From contig NZ_CP022579.1 in the NCBI RefSeq assembly GCF_008274805.1, positions 1,736,001-1,800,000 of the forward strand: a stretch of DNA of 64,000 nucleotides. The letters run 5' to 3'. A program made the position numbers and the translations under genes. Positions 10,525-21,594 of this stretch are shown here, one piece after another. Under the pieces are notes generated by a model. The model saw only the letters and a program-made list of their open reading frames with translations. It was not told where the DNA came from and made no database searches. Numbering within the stretch: position 1 is the stretch's first letter; the number at the start of each line of letters is the position of its first letter. The DNA is from Oryzomicrobium terrae (GTDB lineage: Bacteria > Pseudomonadota > Gammaproteobacteria > Burkholderiales > Rhodocyclaceae).

Positions 10525-10854
10525 ATATTTGACGAAGCTGTAATCTACAAGCGAGGCGAGTATTGGCAGATGCGTATGTGGCTTGCTAAGGAAGGCAAGT
10601 ACGCTCGCTTCAATCTTAAAACGAGAAACAAAAGTGCGGCAATAGACAAAGCCAAGCTCCATTATCACGAGCTTAAGGCAAAGGAATTGGCTGGCAAAAC
10701 TTATTTTTCAATTACAACAAAGATTGGCGTTGAGAGATATTTAGAGCAACGACAGCTAGAAGTAGGGCAAGCGGCTGGCATTGTTGCTGGACGATATAGG
10801 ACGATTAAGACGCACTTAAAGTATGGACTACAGAAGAGAGATAGACGGACTTAG
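10525..10854 (+). pseudogene. Truncated tyrosine recombinase (phage-type integrase), N-terminal arm only
   Basis: An open frame gives AIFDEAVIYKRGEYWQ, then WLAKEGKYARFNLKTRNKSAAI and GVERYLEQRQLEVG. This is the DNA-binding arm and SAM-like start of a site-specific integrase. The frame runs into the acyltransferase gene and stops at 10854, so the catalytic domain (R-H-R-Y) is gone. AT content is far above that of the flanking chromosome. It is the integrase expected for an element inserted in guaA, now dead through both IS insertion and 3' deletion. Confidence 0.75.
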
Positions 10855-12688
10855 GGCGCTTGCTGTGCTGCCAGTGATACTTTTCCACGCTGGCTTTGAA
10901 GCGTTCGGCGGCGGCTTTGTAGGCGTAGATATATTTTTCGTAATCAGCGGTTACTTGATTACGACAATCATTCTTGCTGAGCTTGAGCAAGGAAAGTTCT
11001 CAATCGTCAATTTCTACGAGCGACGTGCTAGGCGAATTTTGCCAGCCTTGTTCTTAGTAATGCTTATTTGTATTCCGTTTGCTTGGTTCTGGCTGTTGCC
11101 AAGCGATATGAAGGACTTCTCGCAAAGCTTAGTTGCCGTCTCTGGCTTTGCTTCGAATATTTTGTTTTGGCGTGAGAGTGGCTATTTTGGTACGGCAGCA
11201 GAACTTAAGCCGCTGTTACATACGTGGAGCTTGGCAGTAGAAGAGCAGTACTATGTTATCTTCCCATTGTTTCTGATGCTGTTTTGGAAATTAGGTAAGC
11301 GTTGGATGCTTGTAACGCTTGGACTTGTATTCGTTGCTAGTCTTGTTCTAGCGCAGTGGGCTGCTTATGCTAAGCCAACCGCTGCCTTTTATCTATTGCC
11401 AACACGTGGCTGGGAATTGCTGATTGGTGCCTTTGCTGCCTTTTACTTGTCGCAAGCTAATCGTAAAGCCTTTGGAAAAGGCTTAAGTGAGTTTGGTGGT
11501 TGGTTAGGTGTTGCGCTGATTATTTACGCAATCTTCGCTTACAGTAATACTACGCCGTTCCCTGGCTTCTATACGCTTGTTCCTACACTAGGCACGGTGC
11601 TGATTATTTTGTTTGCTACACAGCAGACTACCGTTGGCAAGTTTGTAGGTAATAAGGCTTTTGTTGGTATTGGCTTGATAAGCTACAGCGCATATCTCTG
11701 GCATCAGCCTTTGTTCGCATTCGCAAAGCACAGCAGTTTGACTAAACCGAGTAGTTTGGTCTATGGTGTTCTTGCTGTACTAGCTATTGTTATTGCTTAC
11801 TTTACGTGGAAGTATGTGGAAGCGCCTTTCCGAGATAAAAGTAAATTAACAAGAAAGCAAGTTTTTAGCTTGTCCTTAATTTTCAGTTTCACTTTTGTGT
11901 CTGTCGGATTGTTAGGTTATTTAAATTCTGGGAATTTATGGCGATTCGACGATGGTGTCGTGAAGTACTTTGAGTTGAAAAACGATTCCGACATTTATGT
12001 ATGGGATCTAAAAAAAAGGCTCAGAAAGTCATCTTTTAATTCTGAAAAAATAAAAATTTTAGTTATTGGTGATAGTAACTCTGGTGACTTAATTAACGTT
12101 TTGAATTTTGTAAATCTTGATGAATACCTTTCCATTTCTTCGCTCACCATTTATGCTGGATGCGGAAATCTTTATCTAAATAGAAGTAAGTTCTCGCACT
12201 TCATTGCGGCGGATAGTTTAAAGGATTGCGCTGGTGTCGATGATTTGCTAGATGATGAAAATAAAGATTTAATTCGTCAGGCTGACAAAGTTATATTTGC
12301 CTCTAGTTGGAGTGATTGGGAGGTGGACTTGTTGGAAGAAAGCTATCAAAACTTAATTTCTGATTATGGCGATAAGTTTTGGTTTTTCGGAAACAAGCAT
12401 TTAGATTTTTCGCCAATTGATTTTATACGACTTAATGGAGGCGCAAGTTTTCCAAGCTCGGTATTGTTGAGTACGGATAAAGCTAAAATTAATGCAAAAT
12501 TAAGGGATTTATTAGGGGATCGATTTGTCGATCCGTACCTCTCATTTTGCGAGGATGAGGTTTGTAGGTTGTTGAGTGATAGCGGTGATTTGTTGCTCTA
12601 TGATGGTTTTCACTTGTCTAGAGAAGGGACGATTTATTTTTCTAGTAAGCTGAATAATTTCATTAGGTTGCTGAAGAATGAGCGCTGA
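10823..12688 (+). CDS. OafA/YrhL-type membrane acyltransferase with SGNH domain
   Basis: The 621-residue protein starts MDYRREIDGLRALAVLPVILFHAG, the canonical acyltransferase-3 start. The acyltransferase-3 membrane domain (about ten helices, residues 10-345) has the conserved R/K-E-IDGLRA and FYERRARRILPA motifs. A C-terminal periplasmic SGNH-hydrolase-like domain (about 400-615) contains GDSNSGDL and the DGFHLSREG block. Such enzymes O-acetylate surface polysaccharide (O-antigen, LPS). It is strongly AT-rich, especially the 3' half, and is the only intact cargo of the guaA island. The junction with the truncated integrase leaves no clear ribosome site, so expression is uncertain. Confidence 0.88.
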   Translation: MDYRREIDGLRALAVLPVILFHAGFEAFGGGFVGVDIFFVISGYLITTIILAELEQGKFSIVNFYERRARRILPALFLVMLICIPFAWFWLLPSDMKDFSQSLVAVSGFASNILFWRESGYFGTAAELKPLLHTWSLAVEEQYYVIFPLFLMLFWKLGKRWMLVTLGLVFVASLVLAQWAAYAKPTAAFYLLPTRGWELLIGAFAAFYLSQANRKAFGKGLSEFGGWLGVALIIYAIFAYSNTTPFPGFYTLVPTLGTVLIILFATQQTTVGKFVGNKAFVGIGLISYSAYLWHQPLFAFAKHSSLTKPSSLVYGVLAVLAIVIAYFTWKYVEAPFRDKSKLTRKQVFSLSLIFSFTFVSVGLLGYLNSGNLWRFDDGVVKYFELKNDSDIYVWDLKKRLRKSSFNSEKIKILVIGDSNSGDLINVLNFVNLDEYLSISSLTIYAGCGNLYLNRSKFSHFIAADSLKDCAGVDDLLDDENKDLIRQADKVIFASSWSDWEVDLLEESYQNLISDYGDKFWFFGNKHLDFSPIDFIRLNGGASFPSSVLLSTDKAKINAKLRDLLGDRFVDPYLSFCEDEVCRLLSDSGDLLLYDGFHLSREGTIYFSSKLNNFIRLLKNER

Positions 12689-13020: not shown

Positions 13021-13674
13021 TTAACCTTTCCTATCCTCCTGGGCAGGAAGTCCCTTTCTCTGCCGCGAGACGGTTTTCCCCTGGCTGCGCTTGATACGGG
13101 CCAACCGGCGGCGGATTTCATCCGAATCCATCCAGACGTCGCTGCCGTGCTGGATACGGTCGATCTCCCCTTTGGTGAGGAATGGTGTGCAGATTCTGGT
13201 CATCACCTTTTGGAACCAACTGGCGATGGCCACTACTTGAGCCTGTTGCTCGTTGCCTTTGCCGGCAAAATTGCCGGAATAGGTGTGGAACATGAGTTGG
13301 CAGTTGTCATGGACGATCAGATCGTTCCCAGCGAGGAAGATCATCGCGGCCATCGAATAAGCGCGGGCTTCAAGCACCGTGATGATCTGGGCTTCGGAGG
13401 CTTGCATGTTATTAATGATCTGCAACCCGGTATCGAAATCCCCACCAGGGGAGTTGAGATGAAGGTAGATCAGGTCCGTGGGGCCGGCGCTACGCAAGGT
13501 GTAGAACAGCTCGGTGTAGTACTGGGGCTCCTGAATCTCGCCACAGACGTAGTATGAGATCTGTCGAACCGGAGCCTGCCGCTCATAACGCAGCAAGTTG
13601 GTGAAGGCCGTATTGTTGCTTCCGCCATTGTTAGGATCGTCGTCCAGCCCGCAAAGCAATTCTTGTGGTTTCAT
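13021..13674 (-). CDS. Orphan ClpP-like serine protease
   Basis: The 217-residue protein has the ClpP/crotonase-like fold signature: oxyanion strand LHLNSPGGDFDTG (about 71-83), nucleophile helix ARAYSMAAM with Ser near 106, and LMFHTYSG with the catalytic His near 126. The third residue is not obvious. It differs from the housekeeping ClpP in its N-terminus and its basic C-terminal tail (KRSQGKTVSRQRKG). No Clp ATPase or phage gene is adjacent. Related stand-alone ClpP-like proteins occur in phages and as accessory chromosomal genes. Being just outside a decayed island, it may be acquired. Confidence 0.75.
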   Translation of the reverse strand: MKPQELLCGLDDDPNNGGSNNTAFTNLLRYERQAPVRQISYYVCGEIQEPQYYTELFYTLRSAGPTDLIYLHLNSPGGDFDTGLQIINNMQASEAQIITVLEARAYSMAAMIFLAGNDLIVHDNCQLMFHTYSGNFAGKGNEQQAQVVAIASWFQKVMTRICTPFLTKGEIDRIQHGSDVWMDSDEIRRRLARIKRSQGKTVSRQRKGLPAQEDRKG

Positions 13675-15260: not shown

Positions 15261-15527
15261 GTATGGCTCCTTGAGTGTTCTCGGTACGGCCGATCAGTTC
15301 GGCCTAGTCTATTAATTTTCTGCCAGCTTGATGCTGACGATGTCGATTAGGCATCTATCCCAGGTGACGGCTCCCCTGCCCTCGTGCGGGCCTGCTTCAT
15401 GCAGAACCCCGTAATCCGCGCGGCCGCCGCAGATGATAGTCGAACCCATCCAGGTTGAGGCGGCATCGTCGGCTGTACGGGAGCTGGCGCATGCCGGTCA
15501 TTCGGGTCTGGTTGCTCCGCAGCGCAA

Positions 15528-15542: not shown

Positions 15543-15688
15543 CCGGCTACGAGCGGGCGCACGGCGCCTCCCCCTCCCCTGCTCCCAGATCGATTCCTAT
15601 CGGCCGCGGATGCATCTGGATATCCCGATATAAGCAACAAAGATTTCCTTCGTTCGTGGCGAAAAACCCCGGCCGTAGATTGTCATTC

Positions 15689-15745: not shown

Positions 15746-16258
15746 ATGACCGCTCCGACCCTCGCCGAAACTTCGCTCCCCAACACCGAGCTGCCCCCCC
15801 TTACTACCGAAGTCGCCCCGGCGCGTCTGCTCGACGAGGCCCGCGCCCGAGCCCGGACTAGCGGCCTGAATTACGCCGGCGGCCTTTATCCCCCCGAGGC
15901 CTGGCAACTGGTTGCCAGTGGAAAGGCGGTGCTGGTGGACGTGCGCACCGCGGAAGAACTGAAGTTTGTCGGCCGGGTGCCCGGCGCCTTGCATGTGGCC
16001 TGGCAGACCGGTCCGGCCATGATCAAGAACCCGCGCTTCCTGCGTGAGCTGGAAAACAAGGTCGGCAAGGACGACGTGGTGCTGTTTCTCTGCCGCAGCG
16101 GCAAGCGTTCCGCTGCGGCTGCCGAGGCCGCTACCGCCAAGGGGTTCAGCCAGGTTTTCAACATCCTCGAAGGCTTCGAGGGCGATCTGGACAACCAGCA
16201 GCAGCGCGGCGATTCCGGTGGATGGCGGCGCTGGGGCCTGCCCTGGGTGCAGGACTGA
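15746..16258 (+). CDS. Rhodanese-domain sulfurtransferase of the encapsulin operon
   Basis: The 170-residue single-domain rhodanese has the active-site loop FLCRSGKRSAAAAEA, with the persulfide-carrying Cys, and the VLVDVRTAEELKFVGRVPGA segment. It starts at ATG 15746 behind an AAGGA site and is the first gene of a four-gene operon (gap 3 nt to epsC). In known family 2A encapsulin loci a rhodanese commonly accompanies the desulfurase cargo and is thought to move sulfane sulfur. There is no signal peptide, so it is cytoplasmic. Confidence 0.9.
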   Translation: MTAPTLAETSLPNTELPPLTTEVAPARLLDEARARARTSGLNYAGGLYPPEAWQLVASGKAVLVDVRTAEELKFVGRVPGALHVAWQTGPAMIKNPRFLRELENKVGKDDVVLFLCRSGKRSAAAAEAATAKGFSQVFNILEGFEGDLDNQQQRGDSGGWRRWGLPWVQD

Positions 16259-16261
16259 GCC

Positions 16262-17224
16262 ATGGGCGACCTGAATCCGAATGGCCTGGGTACGGTCTCT
16301 CCCGAGCAGCACTGGAACCTGGACCACGTTGTTGCTGAACTGCGCCAGGCCCGCCTGCGCTGGCGCGGCGCCCACGGCCGGCTGCGCGAGTTACGCGCCC
16401 GGGAACTGCCTTCCCGGGAAGCCCTGGGTGAGATCGTCCAGGCCTTGTGCGGCGCCCTCTTCCCGATGCGCCTCGGTCCTCCGGACCTGCGCGACGAGAG
16501 CGAGGACTACTACGTTGGCCACACCCTGGACATCGCCCTCAACGCCCTGCTCGCCCAGGTGCGTCTGGAGCTGGCCTACCAGGCCCGCCAGCATGGCCGC
16601 GACAGCAGCCAGGCCGAGCACGACGCGGTGGATATCGTGCGCCGCTTCGCCGCAGCCCTGCCCGGTATTCGTGGCTTGCTCGACAGCGATGTGGTGGCTG
16701 CCTTCCAGGGCGACCCGGCGGCCCGCAGCGTTGACGAGGTGCTCCTCTGCTATCCGGGGGTGGTGGCGGTGACCCACTACCGCCTCGCCCACAGCCTCTA
16801 CAACCTGGGTGTGCCGCTGCTGGCGCGCATGGTGGCGGAAATCGCCCACGGCGAAACCGGTATCGACATTCACCCCGGCGCCCGGATTGGCTCCGGCTTC
16901 TTCATCGACCACGGCACAGGCGTGGTGATCGGCGAAACCGCCGTCATCGGTGCCCGGGTGCGCCTCTACCAGGCCGTCACCCTGGGGGCCAAGCGCTTCG
17001 AGGTGGACGAGAACAGCGACTGCGGCGCCCTGGCCAAGGGCCAGCCCCGCCACCCGATCGTCGAGGACGAGGTGGTGATCTACGCCGGCGCCACCATCCT
17101 CGGGCGCATCACCATCGGCCGCGGCTCGGTGATCGGTGGCAACGTCTGGCTGACCCGCAGCGTTCCCCCGGGCAGCAACATCACCCAAGCCAACCTGCTT
17201 CAGGAGAGTGCTCCCCAGCCATGA
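16262..17224 (+). CDS. epsC: Serine O-acetyltransferase EpsC
   Basis: The enzyme acetylates serine with acetyl-CoA to O-acetylserine, the carbon skeleton of cysteine. The 320-residue product is longer than CysE (about 270). An all-helical N-terminal part (about 1-185) is followed by a left-handed beta-helix of hexapeptide repeats (about 195-300) containing GIDIHPGARIGSGFFIDHG and the catalytic His residues. The EpsC subgroup is typical of encapsulin family 2A loci. It lies between the rhodanese and the shell gene and would supply substrate for cysteine, which the encapsulated desulfurase consumes. Confidence 0.92.
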   Translation: MGDLNPNGLGTVSPEQHWNLDHVVAELRQARLRWRGAHGRLRELRARELPSREALGEIVQALCGALFPMRLGPPDLRDESEDYYVGHTLDIALNALLAQVRLELAYQARQHGRDSSQAEHDAVDIVRRFAAALPGIRGLLDSDVVAAFQGDPAARSVDEVLLCYPGVVAVTHYRLAHSLYNLGVPLLARMVAEIAHGETGIDIHPGARIGSGFFIDHGTGVVIGETAVIGARVRLYQAVTLGAKRFEVDENSDCGALAKGQPRHPIVEDEVVIYAGATILGRITIGRGSVIGGNVWLTRSVPPGSNITQANLLQESAPQP

Positions 17225-17281
17225 ACCTTCCACTTCTGCTGTACCGCTGTAGTCCCTTTCAAACCTGCTCAGGAGTAATCA

Positions 17282-18214
17282 ATGGCTGAACACCAGGATG
17301 TGCGCCAGGCCCTCGGCGACAACGCCGCGCGCCAGCTCGCCAACGCCACCAAGACAGTTCCCCAGTACTCGATCATCACCCCCCGCTGGCTGGTGCACCT
17401 GCTGCAATGGCAGCCCGTGGAAGCTGGCATTTTCCGCCTCAACAAGGTCAAGAACGCTGCCCTGATCCGGGTAGCGTGCTCCAAGCGCGACGAGGCCGAA
17501 TTGCCCCAGACCTTCGTCGACTACGAGGATCAGCCCCGGGAATATTTCCTCAACGCCGTCACCACCATCCTCGATGTGCACACCCGGGTCTCGGACCTCT
17601 ACAGCAGCCCCCACGACCAGATCAAGGAGCAACTGCGCCTCACCATCGAGACCATCAAGGAGCGCCAGGAAAGCGAGCTGATCAACAACCCGGAGTACGG
17701 CCTGCTCGCCAATGTGGACCCGACCCAACGCATTTCCACCCTGACTGGCGCTCCGACCCCCGATGACCTGGACGAGCTGATCAGCAAGGTGTGGAAAGAG
17801 CCGGGCTTCTTCCTCGCCCACCCCTTGGCGATCGCCGCCTTCGGTCGGGAATGCACCCGTCGCGGTGTGCCCCCGCCCACGGTCAGCCTGTTCGGCTCCC
17901 AGTTCCTCACCTGGCGCGGCCTGCCCCTGATCCCCTCCGACAAGCTGCCCATCGACGAAGACGGCAAGACCCAGATCCTGCTGCTGCGCGTCGGCGACAA
18001 GCGCCAGGGCGTGGTCGGCCTGTACCAACCCGGCCTGGCCGGCGAACAGAGCCCAGGGCTGTCGGTGCGCTTCATGGGCATCAACCGTAACGCCATCGCC
18101 TCCTACCTGATTTCGCTGTATTGCTCGCTGGCGGTACTCACCGAAGACGCCCTGGCGGTTCTCGAAGACGTGGAGATCGGCAAGTACCATGACTACCCCG
18201 ACACCTACAAGTAA
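17282..18214 (+). CDS. srpI: Family 2A encapsulin shell protein (SrpI-like)
   Basis: The 310-residue protein belongs to the SrpI/MMP-I type of HK97-fold encapsulins. It has the extended N-terminal arm, and the E-loop and P-domain region including YEDQPREYFLNAVTTILDVHTRVSDLYSSP (split here: YEDQPREYFLNAV, then TRVSDLYSSPHDQI). The C-terminal part contains GLPLIPSDKLPI and the closing IGKYHDYPDTYK. Such proteins assemble into icosahedral shells enclosing a cysteine desulfurase; known members respond to sulfur limitation. The stop overlaps the start of the desulfurase gene by 26 nt, implying translational coupling of shell and cargo. The AGGAG site at 17271 is strong. Confidence 0.92.
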   Translation: MAEHQDVRQALGDNAARQLANATKTVPQYSIITPRWLVHLLQWQPVEAGIFRLNKVKNAALIRVACSKRDEAELPQTFVDYEDQPREYFLNAVTTILDVHTRVSDLYSSPHDQIKEQLRLTIETIKERQESELINNPEYGLLANVDPTQRISTLTGAPTPDDLDELISKVWKEPGFFLAHPLAIAAFGRECTRRGVPPPTVSLFGSQFLTWRGLPLIPSDKLPIDEDGKTQILLLRVGDKRQGVVGLYQPGLAGEQSPGLSVRFMGINRNAIASYLISLYCSLAVLTEDALAVLEDVEIGKYHDYPDTYK

Positions 18215-20036
18215 TGGCGTGACCGGGCTGGCGTCGTCGCCGCCGGGCCTGCCCGACGTGGATACCCTGGCCCGGCTGGCCGGCGAGTTCTTTGCCACCC
18301 TGCCTGGCGGGGGCGCCTCGCCGGCTTTTGCGCCGGCGCCAGCACGGGGCGTGGCCGAAGGGGGGGCACCGTCGCCAGCGTCTCCTGCCTTGGCCAACGA
18401 TCCGGTCGAGGCCGCGCCGTCGGCCGGTCGTGGCGCTGCCGGGCCGGCAGTACCGGAGGCCTATGCGGCAGCCTTGCCCACGGTGCCCCTGGCCGGAACA
18501 CCAGGGCCGGGCAGTCCCTACTACTTCCTCGGGGAATCGAGCGCCTACCGGGCCGAGTCACCGGTTCTACCCGACAGCGCCCTGCTGCCGGGCGGTTCGG
18601 TGTCGCCCCAGTCCTTCGGCTTACCTGGCCAGGACGAGCTGCGGGCCCTGCTCGCCGAGATCGGCGGCTCCTCCCGGGGTGAGGTCGCGCGTCAGGAGGC
18701 GTCGGCCCCTGGCTTCTACTTCCTCGACCAGAGCGGTGGTCCGCGCGGGCAACGCTATGCCGAGCCGCCGGAAGCGCCGTCCCAGCTACAGGTAGCCACG
18801 CCGCCCTTCGACATCAACGCCGTGCGCCGGGATTTCCCGATTCTCGCCGAGCGAGTCAATGGCCGCCCCCTGATCTGGCTCGACAATGCCGCCACGACGC
18901 AGAAGCCCCAGGCGGTGATCGACCGGCTGGCCTACTTCTACGCCCACGAAAACTCCAACATCCACCGGGCCGCCCACGAACTGGCCGCACGGGCCACCGA
19001 CGCCTACGAGGCGGCGCGGCACAAGGTGGCGCGCTTTCTCGGCGCCGGTTCGCCGGAGGAGATCGTGTTCGTGCGCGGCGCCACCGAGGCCATCAACCTG
19101 GTGGCCAAGACCTGGGGGGCGCAGAACATCGGGCCCGGCGACGAGATCGTCGTCTCCCTGCTCGAACACCACGCCAACATCGTGCCCTGGCAGCAGCTCG
19201 CTGCCGCCAGCGGGGCGAAGATCCGCGTGATTCCGGTAGACGACGACGGCCAGATCCTGCTCGACGAGTACCAGAAGCTGCTCAACAGCCGCACCAGGCT
19301 GGTGGCCATCACCCAGGTTTCCAACGCCCTGGGTACGGTGACGCCGGTCAAGCAGATCATCGACCTGGCTCACCGGGCCGGCGCCCGGGTGCTGGTGGAC
19401 GGGGCCCAGTCGGTGTCGCACCTGCGGGTCAACGTCCAGGCCCTGGATGCGGACTTCTTCGTCTTTTCCGGGCACAAGGTATTCGCCCCCACCGGCATCG
19501 GTGTGGTCTATGCCAAGAAAGAGTTGCTGGAGGCCATGCCCCCTTGGCAGGGGGGCGGCAACATGATCGCCGACGTCACTTTCGAGCGCACCCAGTACCA
19601 GCCGCCGCCCAACAAGTTCGAGGCCGGCACCGGCAACATCGCCGACGCGGTGGGGCTGGGCGCCGCCCTGGACTACGTGGAGCGGATCGGCCTGGAGAAC
19701 ATCGCCCACTACGAGCACCTGCTGCTCGACTACGCCACCCAGGGGCTGAAGACCGTCCCCGGGCTGCGCCTGGTGGGCACCGCCCGGGACAAGACCAGCG
19801 TGCTGTCCTTCGTTCTGGAGGGCTACCGTACCGAGGAAGTGGGCGCGGCCCTCAACCGGGATGGTATCGCCGTGCGCTCCGGCCACCACTGCGCCCAGCC
19901 GATCCTGCGCCGCTTCGGCCTGGAAGCAACGGTGCGCCCGTCCCTGGCCTTTTACAACACCTGCGAGGAGGTCGATACCCTGGTGGCCGTGCTGCACCGC
20001 TTGGCCCGGGGCAAGGGGAACACGGCGCTGCGCTAG
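18189..20036 (+). CDS. Cysteine desulfurase cargo with disordered N-terminal targeting region
   Basis: Residues about 207-615 are a SufS-type PLP enzyme that takes sulfur from cysteine, giving alanine and a protein persulfide. The PLP lysine is near 430 (SGHKVFAPTG) and the catalytic Cys near 568 (SGHHCAQPI). The first about 200 residues are Pro/Ala/Gly-rich and disordered, with three short conserved-looking islands: LARLAGEFFATLPG (27-40), GSPYYFLGE (108-116) and GFYFLDQ (175-181). Long extensions with such motifs are the cargo-loading domains of family 2A encapsulin desulfurases. The start at 18189 overlaps the shell gene. Confidence 0.93.
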   Translation: MTTPTPTSNGVTGLASSPPGLPDVDTLARLAGEFFATLPGGGASPAFAPAPARGVAEGGAPSPASPALANDPVEAAPSAGRGAAGPAVPEAYAAALPTVPLAGTPGPGSPYYFLGESSAYRAESPVLPDSALLPGGSVSPQSFGLPGQDELRALLAEIGGSSRGEVARQEASAPGFYFLDQSGGPRGQRYAEPPEAPSQLQVATPPFDINAVRRDFPILAERVNGRPLIWLDNAATTQKPQAVIDRLAYFYAHENSNIHRAAHELAARATDAYEAARHKVARFLGAGSPEEIVFVRGATEAINLVAKTWGAQNIGPGDEIVVSLLEHHANIVPWQQLAAASGAKIRVIPVDDDGQILLDEYQKLLNSRTRLVAITQVSNALGTVTPVKQIIDLAHRAGARVLVDGAQSVSHLRVNVQALDADFFVFSGHKVFAPTGIGVVYAKKELLEAMPPWQGGGNMIADVTFERTQYQPPPNKFEAGTGNIADAVGLGAALDYVERIGLENIAHYEHLLLDYATQGLKTVPGLRLVGTARDKTSVLSFVLEGYRTEEVGAALNRDGIAVRSGHHCAQPILRRFGLEATVRPSLAFYNTCEEVDTLVAVLHRLARGKGNTALR

Positions 20037-20054: not shown

Positions 20055-20096
20055 ATGGAAAAAGCCTCCGCCTGCAAAGGTGGAGGCTTTTTCCAT
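20055..20096. terminator. Strong bidirectional terminator after the encapsulin operon
   Basis: A 15-bp perfect stem (ATGGAAAAAGCCTCC with GGAGGCTTTTTCCAT) closes the operon on the plus strand. It lies just beyond the end of the convergent regulator gene (20178) on the minus strand. Confidence 0.9.
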
Positions 20097-20177: not shown

Positions 20178-21266
<1,089 letters not shown>

Positions 21267-21594
21267 TGTTGTGTGTCGTTGGGGAGCGCCTTGGCGCTGA
21301 AGGACGTCAATCTAGGCCGCATTGCAGCAGTCAGAAACGAACGATTTGTTATTTGCTTCTTTCCTTTCGGCAGGATCGAGGTCTGCATGGATAAAGGCTC
21401 TTCGGGCAGTTGGAAGATTTTCGGCGCAACCCCATGAATTCACGTTTTATTCCCGATGCAAATGAATAAATAGGAAATCCATCGTAGGGGGCGCCGTCCC
21501 GGCTGGCTAGCATCGGATGCTTTCGCTGGCTGCCCTGTGGGGCCCGCCGGCGCCGTTTACCCGGTCTGCCGACCATCCGCCGAGGACTATCGCC
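21267..21594. promoter_or_regulatory. Divergent promoter region between the SfnR-like gene and the transaminase gene
   Basis: No gene is seen in about 330 bp. A perfect 7-bp inverted repeat with an 11-nt centre (TTTATTC at 21446-21452, GAATAAA at 21464-21470) lies in the only AT-rich part and is a candidate operator. I did not find a good GG-N10-GC sigma-54 signature towards the transaminase. Confidence 0.35.

Follow-up and report, generated by a model that had tools for sequence, protein, structure and literature searches.

Why should a bacterium make a compartment that removes sulfur from cysteine while sulfur is short? The question is raised by a family 2A encapsulin operon of four genes, encoding a rhodanese, a serine acetyltransferase, a shell protein and a cysteine desulfurase cargo, at positions 15746-20036 of a 64,000-nucleotide stretch of the Oryzomicrobium terrae genome (the window: G000:C1:1736001-1800000, part of a single-contig genome of 3.53 Mb). 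The operon itself is of a published kind, and what is added here is its promoter and the docking pattern of its cargo. We consider it quite probable that this canonical family 2A encapsulin operon works as a starvation-induced sulfur buffer under a CysB-family activator, where the identity of the regulator, the docking, the storage and the roles of acetyltransferase and rhodanese are points that we infer or take from papers.

The gene coordinates given in a first-pass annotation of the same DNA proved exact to the base for all four genes when re-read from the sequence, and their order and tight spacing hold. The first gene (15746-16258, forward strand, like the three that follow) encodes a rhodanese of 170 residues (PF00581, 57.9 bits) with the active loop CRSGKRS; its start is an internal ATG within a longer open reading frame (ORF) that opens at 15455. 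Only 3 nt further lies the gene of an EpsC-type serine O-acetyltransferase of 320 residues (16262-17224; NF041874, 157.7 bits, cut-off 150), which falls under the cut-off of the cysE model TIGR01172, and the canonical cysE of the genome sits elsewhere (G000:C1:1544906). The shell protein, 310 residues long, is encoded after another 57 nt (17282-18214; NF041162, 550.8 bits, cut-off 380; PF19307, 364.2 bits) and its gene is overlapped over 26 nt by that of the cargo (18189-20036), a SufS-type cysteine desulfurase of 615 residues with an N-terminal extension of about 206 residues (NF041166, 920.5 bits, cut-off 800). The family 2B model NF041163 is also over its cut-off on the shell (439 vs 400), with a lower score and a best stretch covering 209-449 of 450; the cyclic-nucleotide-binding insertion is absent, the shell having 310 residues and PF19307 as the sole Pfam domain matched. 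Moreover, the shell is colinear over almost its full length with the solved structures 8t6r (residues 2-310) and 6x8m (9-305), a strong homology that argues for an HK97 fold. Model scores over cut-off and solved homologues together bear out the first-pass identification of a family 2A desulfurase encapsulin, and the four genes are, judged by these matches, a canonical operon of a type already published. A Family 1 encapsulin (PF04454) gave no match in the same genome.

What would turn this operon on? A conserved promoter, absent from the first-pass annotation, is predicted at 15627-15681. Upstream regions of the rhodanese gene could be taken from 75 of 81 loci (80 relatives and the window), 60 of which were left after similarity reduction, and de novo motif finding in these 60 regions returned one strong motif, tnATAagcAtntnAaTTTTTATTCGTTt. 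The log-likelihood of its 28-base model was 517, against 100-114 in five dinucleotide-preserving shuffled sets; random starts numbered 25 for the shuffled sets and 40 for the real one. In a ten-fold cross-validation, not fully blind because the matrix was seeded with the consensus of the full set, the 95th percentile of the shuffles was exceeded by 55 of the 60 held-out regions and the 99th by 52. Outside the motif, 48 of 55 sites have the element TANNNT exactly 20 nt past the box, compared with a mean of 0.45 at other offsets, a spacing that was first noticed by eye and counted afterwards. The composite thus reads: box ATAAG...TTTTTATTCGTTY, 20 nt, TANNNT. In the window, the activator-type box GATATAAGCAACAAAGATTTCCTTCGTTCG occupies 15627-15656 on the forward strand (30.1 bits in the scan, 25.8 held out), and the predicted -10 element TAGATT follows on the same strand at 15676-15681, exactly 20 nt after the CGTTC of the box. 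The operon promoter predicted in this way is rigid, its activator box ending near the expected -35 position.

The same promoter appears to precede genes of sulfur acquisition. When the encapsulin-operon matrix was applied to other genes of the same loci, 905 background genes, which include some false ORFs because the gene calls of the loci were crude, had a median of -1.3 bits and a 95th percentile of 14.4. Genes for sulfate-binding proteins (n = 15) reached a median of 21.5 bits, nine of them scoring at least 15, while genes for SfnR-like regulators, one of which adjoins the operon, reached 23.1 bits (n = 15, two being more distant activators), with eight at 20 bits or above, seven of these Zoogloea-type. 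Three ssuE-like genes, all from one genus, Aquitalea, scored 24.9-26.9 bits. In this matrix scan the operon-internal genes ssuC, tauD and cysK did not stand out, ssuA, cysT, ssuD and cysB genes showed no clear excess as groups (P 0.047-0.84), and the shell genes themselves gave a mild signal (median 5.9 bits, 8 of 70 at 15 bits or more). The cluster names ssuE, ssuC, ssuD, tauD, cysT and cysK are ones that we assigned by eye. The spacing also recurred: among the 25 held-out sites scoring 10 bits or more, TANNNT stood at exactly 20 nt in 17 and at 19 or 21 nt in six, and was missing from two, one of them cut short.

In the O. terrae genome, two sites with the 20-nt spacing each stand roughly 70 bp ahead of an uptake gene: one of 36.3 bits ahead of a sulfate-binding-protein gene, the other of 19.3 bits ahead of an SsuA-like gene. 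A third site, of 20.6 bits, lacks this spacing and is located some 0.3 kb ahead of an ssuE-ssuA-ssuD-like cluster. At the second sulfate-binding-protein gene of the genome and at three of the SsuA-type loci outside the ssu cluster (together L136 and L140-L142), no site reached 12 bits. CysB itself is encoded in the genome (G000:C1:2074263; NF009326, 448.3 bits, cut-off 436), as is another member of the CysB family (G000:C1:1241963). From this regulon we infer a CysB-type sulfate-starvation control of the operon, with CysB as the likeliest regulator. The link to sulfur stress that the first-pass annotation had drawn is strengthened by a promoter common to sulfate and sulfonate uptake genes. That the encapsulin operon and these uptake genes have a conserved predicted promoter in common is the new point shown by this comparison; no paper connecting an encapsulin with CysB or with SfnR was found in the open-licence literature, which is weak evidence of novelty, subscription papers lying mostly outside the search.

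These elements may be assembled into a working scheme. Under sulfate scarcity, a CysB-family LysR activator at 15627-15656 would turn the operon on. The acetyltransferase would make O-acetylserine, which a cysteine synthase would convert to cysteine; CysB, for its part, usually has O-acetylserine or its isomer as co-inducer. Shell and cargo would be made by coupled translation, the cargo starting within the shell gene, and the disordered N-terminus of the cargo would be held inside the shell by a helix at residues 27-40 and aromatic peptides at residues 111-116 and 176-181. The enclosed desulfurase would then take sulfur from cysteine, and the shell would retain this sulfur in sulfane or elemental form; the rhodanese, located outside the shell, would take up the stored sulfur and pass it on. 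Sulfur held in the shell and then taken by the rhodanese would make the compartment a starvation-induced sulfur buffer. If so, the compartment works during sulfur scarcity, buffering scavenged sulfur, and a promoter common to sulfate and sulfonate uptake indicates when proteobacteria are likely to use it and names a likely regulator. It also sharpens the paradox of a desulfurase compartment built while sulfur is short. More generally, and on balance, we favour the view that the desulfurase encapsulin of Beta- and Gammaproteobacteria is a built-in output of sulfate starvation, whose promoter (LysR/CysB box, 20 nt, TANNNT) would co-drive sulfate and sulfonate uptake and the SfnR-like regulator; that it is a scarcity buffer and not a luxury store; and that its cargo carries three separable docking peptides, of kinds exchangeable between lineages.

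The first-pass annotation had the acetyltransferase supply a cysteine precursor and the rhodanese handle released sulfur, both at the shell. These two roles are already published (PMC8346489); nothing in the present data places either enzyme at the shell, and docking-type motifs occurred in none of 68 extracted rhodaneses and none of 67 extracted acetyltransferases (kept from 75 and 72 matches, the window included, after unclear starts were dropped). The strings DIHP, DH(G/A)TG..GET and an RHP type were present in all 67 acetyltransferases. The rhodanese is a near-constant partner, found in 74 of 80 loci (in the other six, the contig runs out before the shell or acetyltransferase gene on its upstream side) and with an intact CxSGxRS loop in 67 of the 68 extracted sequences, that of the window included. 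Such constancy would also suit a channel rather than a store, in which confinement of the desulfurase by the shell would reserve its sulfur for the partner rhodanese alone, for use in cofactor synthesis, as proposed in PMC8346489; later work is cited as sulfur storage in PMC12407261, and we regard the channel as possible, if rather unlikely.

The first-pass annotation had described a 26-nt overlap of shell and cargo genes, and this is found at 18189-18214, with the cargo ATG lying inside the His-Asp codons (CAT GAC) of the shell. The overlap recurs in relatives, in 73 of 79 cargos, a count favoured by our choosing as cargo start the in-frame start nearest to a 26-nt overlap. Another count reads a fixed position, and so needs no choice of start: among the 81 shells, 76 have His at this position and 75 of these use CAT, whereas elsewhere in the same shell genes CAT makes up 42% of the His codons (176 of 418). 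For genes with more than 60% G+C, the overlap His is CAT in 52 of 52, compared with 94 of 290 at other His codons. The cargo start is thus under selection at the codon level, and so, probably, is the translational coupling of shell and cargo.

How would the cargo be retained? Its class V aminotransferase/desulfurase domain spans residues 229-598 (18873-19982, forward strand; PF00266, 492.5 bits) with the strings SGHK and RSGHHCAQP, and matches solved desulfurases. K430 and C568 are invariant among 27 cargos; we take them, by analogy with SufS, to be the lysine that binds pyridoxal phosphate (PLP) and the catalytic cysteine. Three further strong PF00266 proteins (163-296 bits) are encoded in the genome, so the cargo is probably extra to the housekeeping desulfurases. 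The N-terminal extension, which the earlier reading had called disordered, has AlphaFold2 confidence (pLDDT, low values of which serve as a proxy for disorder) below 50 at residues 1-19, 41-147 and 159-202, which agrees with that reading, and the model places two helices in it, at 24-36 and 148-159, the latter absent from the first-pass annotation. The docking-type motifs previously named lie where they had been placed: LARLAGEFFATLPG at residues 27-40 (18267-18308), inside the first predicted helix, YYFLGE at 111-116 (18519-18536) and FYFLDQ at 176-181 (18714-18731), the latter two counted as [YF][YF]F; the second predicted helix (18630-18665), DELRALLAEIGG, follows the string SFGLPG, and all four features are on the forward strand.

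This arrangement is general among the relatives examined. In a census of 75 cargo N-termini kept from 81 loci (the window and 74 relatives, cargos of at most 500 residues and loci without a cargo being left out), LAxEFFxxLP was present in 73, against a mean of 0.16 and a maximum of 2 over 300 shuffles, and at least two [YF][YF]F peptides were present in 69, against a maximum of 1 in 75 over 300 shuffles. Stricter patterns, tried before these were widened, had given 25 of 62 for the helix motif and 34 of 62 for two or more aromatic motifs. Where two aromatic peptides exist, the median distance between the last two is 62 residues, and the desulfurase domain, with its RRDFP-type start, begins a median of 31 residues from the last one; an SFGLPG-like string occurs in 39 of 75. 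As a sequence pattern, then, the multivalent docking that had been suggested for this one cargo recurs in most relatives examined, and docking looks multivalent across them.

For the Synechococcus cargo CyD, published loading data fit graded docking. According to Nichols et al. 2021 (PMC8049743), its disordered N-terminus, which has the motifs LARLANEFFS and AASPYYFLDG, is required for loading; the first 100 residues give poorer loading than the full 225, and the segment 155-183, which holds the YYFL-type motif, is insufficient alone. Motifs of both published types, LARLANEFFS and SPYYFL, are present in the N-terminus of the window cargo. The failure of that fragment to load cargo on its own would suit docking by the helix alone, the aromatic peptides being low-complexity accidents of a disordered linker, and six of the 75 cargo N-termini do have a single aromatic peptide. 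Such accidents sit badly with the 69 of 75 that have two or more when shuffles never exceed one, and with Synechococcus CyD, where reading by eye shows two L-QL-Q-VLQD repeats with a single FYF peptide, as if the modules were exchangeable; helix-only docking is in our view doubtful. A three-peptide pattern, differently made up in a cyanobacterium, gives a cargo-loading rule that can be tested peptide by peptide.

Several results weigh against control by CysB and against a sulfur buffer. Five of the 60 operon upstream regions have no recognisable box, and the plain box pattern is not in excess across the O. terrae genome, with 24 matches compared with 29 for a reversed control, so that a single box match without context means little; two of the 23 matches outside the operon directly precede a sulfate-binding-protein gene and an SsuA-like gene. 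In Escherichia coli K-12, for which we took eight test genes as CysB-controlled, the matrix recognised their promoters weakly, with an area under the curve (AUC) of 0.886 (8 vs 62 neighbour genes). The column-reversed matrix reached 0.82 and 200 column-permuted matrices averaged 0.735, 1% of them matching the real one, so that much of this AUC is explained by AT-richness. The top-scoring E. coli gene was casA, not taken as CysB-controlled, tauA and tcyP scored low, and none of the eight promoters had TANNNT at exactly 20 nt. The name CysB is accordingly drawn from membership of the regulon. As for the compartment, the AlphaFold2 model of the shell had a mean pLDDT of 33.3 (alignment of 25 sequences, the others 83-97% identical to that of the window), and the HK97 fold is for this reason assigned by homology to solved family 2A shells. 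The storage step leans on the work of Benisch in 2024, which reportedly describes sulfur storage. Finally, Synechococcus knock-outs had no growth defect with sulfur present or absent (PMC8049743).

Could the box be a mere AT-rich UP-element, or part of any strong promoter, without specificity for sulfur? The box is AT-rich, and the scores of the reversed and permuted matrices in E. coli point the same way. Dinucleotide-preserving shuffles did not reproduce it, however, and scores of at least 15 bits, found in 4.4% of the 905 background genes, were reached by nine of the 15 sulfate-binding-protein genes, just as eight of the 15 SfnR-like genes carry strong sites; a generic promoter thus appears improbable to us, and a sulfur-specific activator box remains the preferred reading.

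Converging on the operon is a gene, not mentioned in the first-pass annotation, for a 362-residue sigma-54 activator lacking an N-terminal sensory domain (20178-21266, reverse strand), in which PF00158, its lid and an HTH_8 domain cover residues 29-347. We call it SfnR-like by resemblance, and no SfnR model is among the 25 of 30 NCBIfam matches listed. Copies of this regulator form a class of their own (at least 341 bits vs at most 280) and occur in 18 of 47 shell-bearing genomes. Upstream of the gene in the window lies a weaker copy of the box (21334-21363, reverse strand; 7.5 bits against local composition, 13.5 against that of the window), with TAGATT at 21314-21309, exactly 20 nt past it. 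Matches of the -24/-12 type (TGGCAC-N5-TTGC) were no commoner upstream of the operon than expected, at 10 of 75 (13.3%) vs 13.2% in the background with a loose cut, so that sigma-54 was rejected as a direct driver; with a strict cut there were none upstream of the operon among the 75 and none in the window, in a scan that had no positive control. That this regulator, rather than a CysB-type factor, drives the operon is very improbable: the gene lies 2 kb from the shell here, within 5 kb of it in seven of the 47 shell-bearing genomes (four genera) and, at 50% identity or more, in the loci of 14 of 80 relatives, but the operon has a conserved TANNNT -10 element instead, such a regulator is absent from the locus of the closest relative (L031), and some regulator genes carry the same box (eight of 15 at 20 bits or above, the copy in the window being lower), for which reason the linkage is better read as membership of a shared regulon.

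The same box is also found by genes without an obvious sulfur role, at 23.8 bits in one of four members of gene cluster 41 (L032, L090, L092, L095), 19.5 bits in two of three of cluster 72 (L095, L109) and a median of 18.9 bits in cluster 44 (n = 4); these genes are candidate new members of the regulon.

Between the converging operon and SfnR-like gene, an inverted repeat with 14-base arms and A- and T-rich edges was read by eye at 20056-20095, a probable bidirectional terminator. On the other side of the operon lies a stretch of low G+C (10570-12688, ORFs of 41-43% G+C), likely a recent acquisition, with an acyltransferase-3/SGNH gene at 10823-12688 (PF01757, PF19040). At 13021-13674, on the reverse strand, is encoded a ClpP-like protease resembling phage head-maturation proteases (below cut-off), of which a 90% identical copy lies near the operon of L031.

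Within the family to which the window belongs, 47 of 199 genomes drawn have the shell. L031, a metagenome-assembled Oryzomicrobium genome, is the nearest named relative by shell (97% identity), and a shell 87% identical to that of the window lies on a contig filed as Verrucomicrobiaceae (L051), by transfer or misbinning. The order rhodanese, acetyltransferase, shell, cargo is kept in 61 of the 80 relatives fetched with a shell; of the remaining loci, seven have no acetyltransferase, five have it divergent and seven, all cut by a contig end, have fewer genes (loci below 9000 bases, seven of the 80, were left out of the clustering of neighbours). In Zoogloea-type loci (L045-L048, L052, L053, L063) rhodanese, shell and cargo are kept and the locus has no acetyltransferase. 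A cysteine-synthase-like gene lies near the acetyltransferase in nine of 71 loci (L072, L090, L092, L095, L096, L105, L107, L108, L109), in eight of them between rhodanese and acetyltransferase, and none was seen in the operon of the window. A C-terminal isoleucine of the acetyltransferase was rejected as a sign of a cysteine synthase complex, being present in only three of 71 and showing no clear link to an adjoining cysK (nine of 71); the acetyltransferase of the window ends in QP. A wider survey counted 1281 family 2A desulfurase operons, among whose partners serine acetyltransferases and rhodaneses were the most enriched (PMC8346489).

How does this locus compare with known systems? The neighbouring regulator resembles SfnR of Pseudomonas, which serves the use of dimethyl sulfone, in being a sigma-54 activator without a sensory domain that is linked to sulfur genes, the name again being given by resemblance. 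The CysB/Cbl sulfate-starvation regulon of E. coli is like the window in that cysD, sbp and cysK have their best box roughly 90 bp ahead of the start codon, and unlike it in lacking the exact 20-nt TANNNT spacing in eight promoters and in being weakly recognised by the matrix. Among encapsulins, the shell is 82.3% identical over 310 residues to records of Acinetobacter baumannii, and the colinear structure 8t6r (chain 'Major membrane protein I') is a shell of the Acinetobacter type; in contrast to the window, the acetyltransferase gene is divergent in the five Acinetobacter loci of the set (acetyltransferase, divergent, then rhodanese, shell and cargo). The first-pass annotation had proposed alignment to SrpI loci, and over 95% of the query the shell shares 76% identity with SrpI of Synechococcus elongatus PCC 7942. 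The SrpI/CyD system (6x8m, 6x8t; PMC8049743), whose plasmid-borne type locus reads cysK-epsC-srpI-cyd-rhodanese, has the same gene set as the window, with epsC upstream and a rhodanese in the cluster, whereas in Synechococcus cysK leads, the rhodanese is downstream and short (116 residues), and shell and cargo genes do not overlap. Its cargo likewise has a disordered N-terminus with the same two kinds of motif, in a different make-up of two helix-type repeats and one FYF peptide. The Synechococcus family 2A encapsulin is induced by sulfur starvation, according to Nichols et al. 2021 (PMC8049743).

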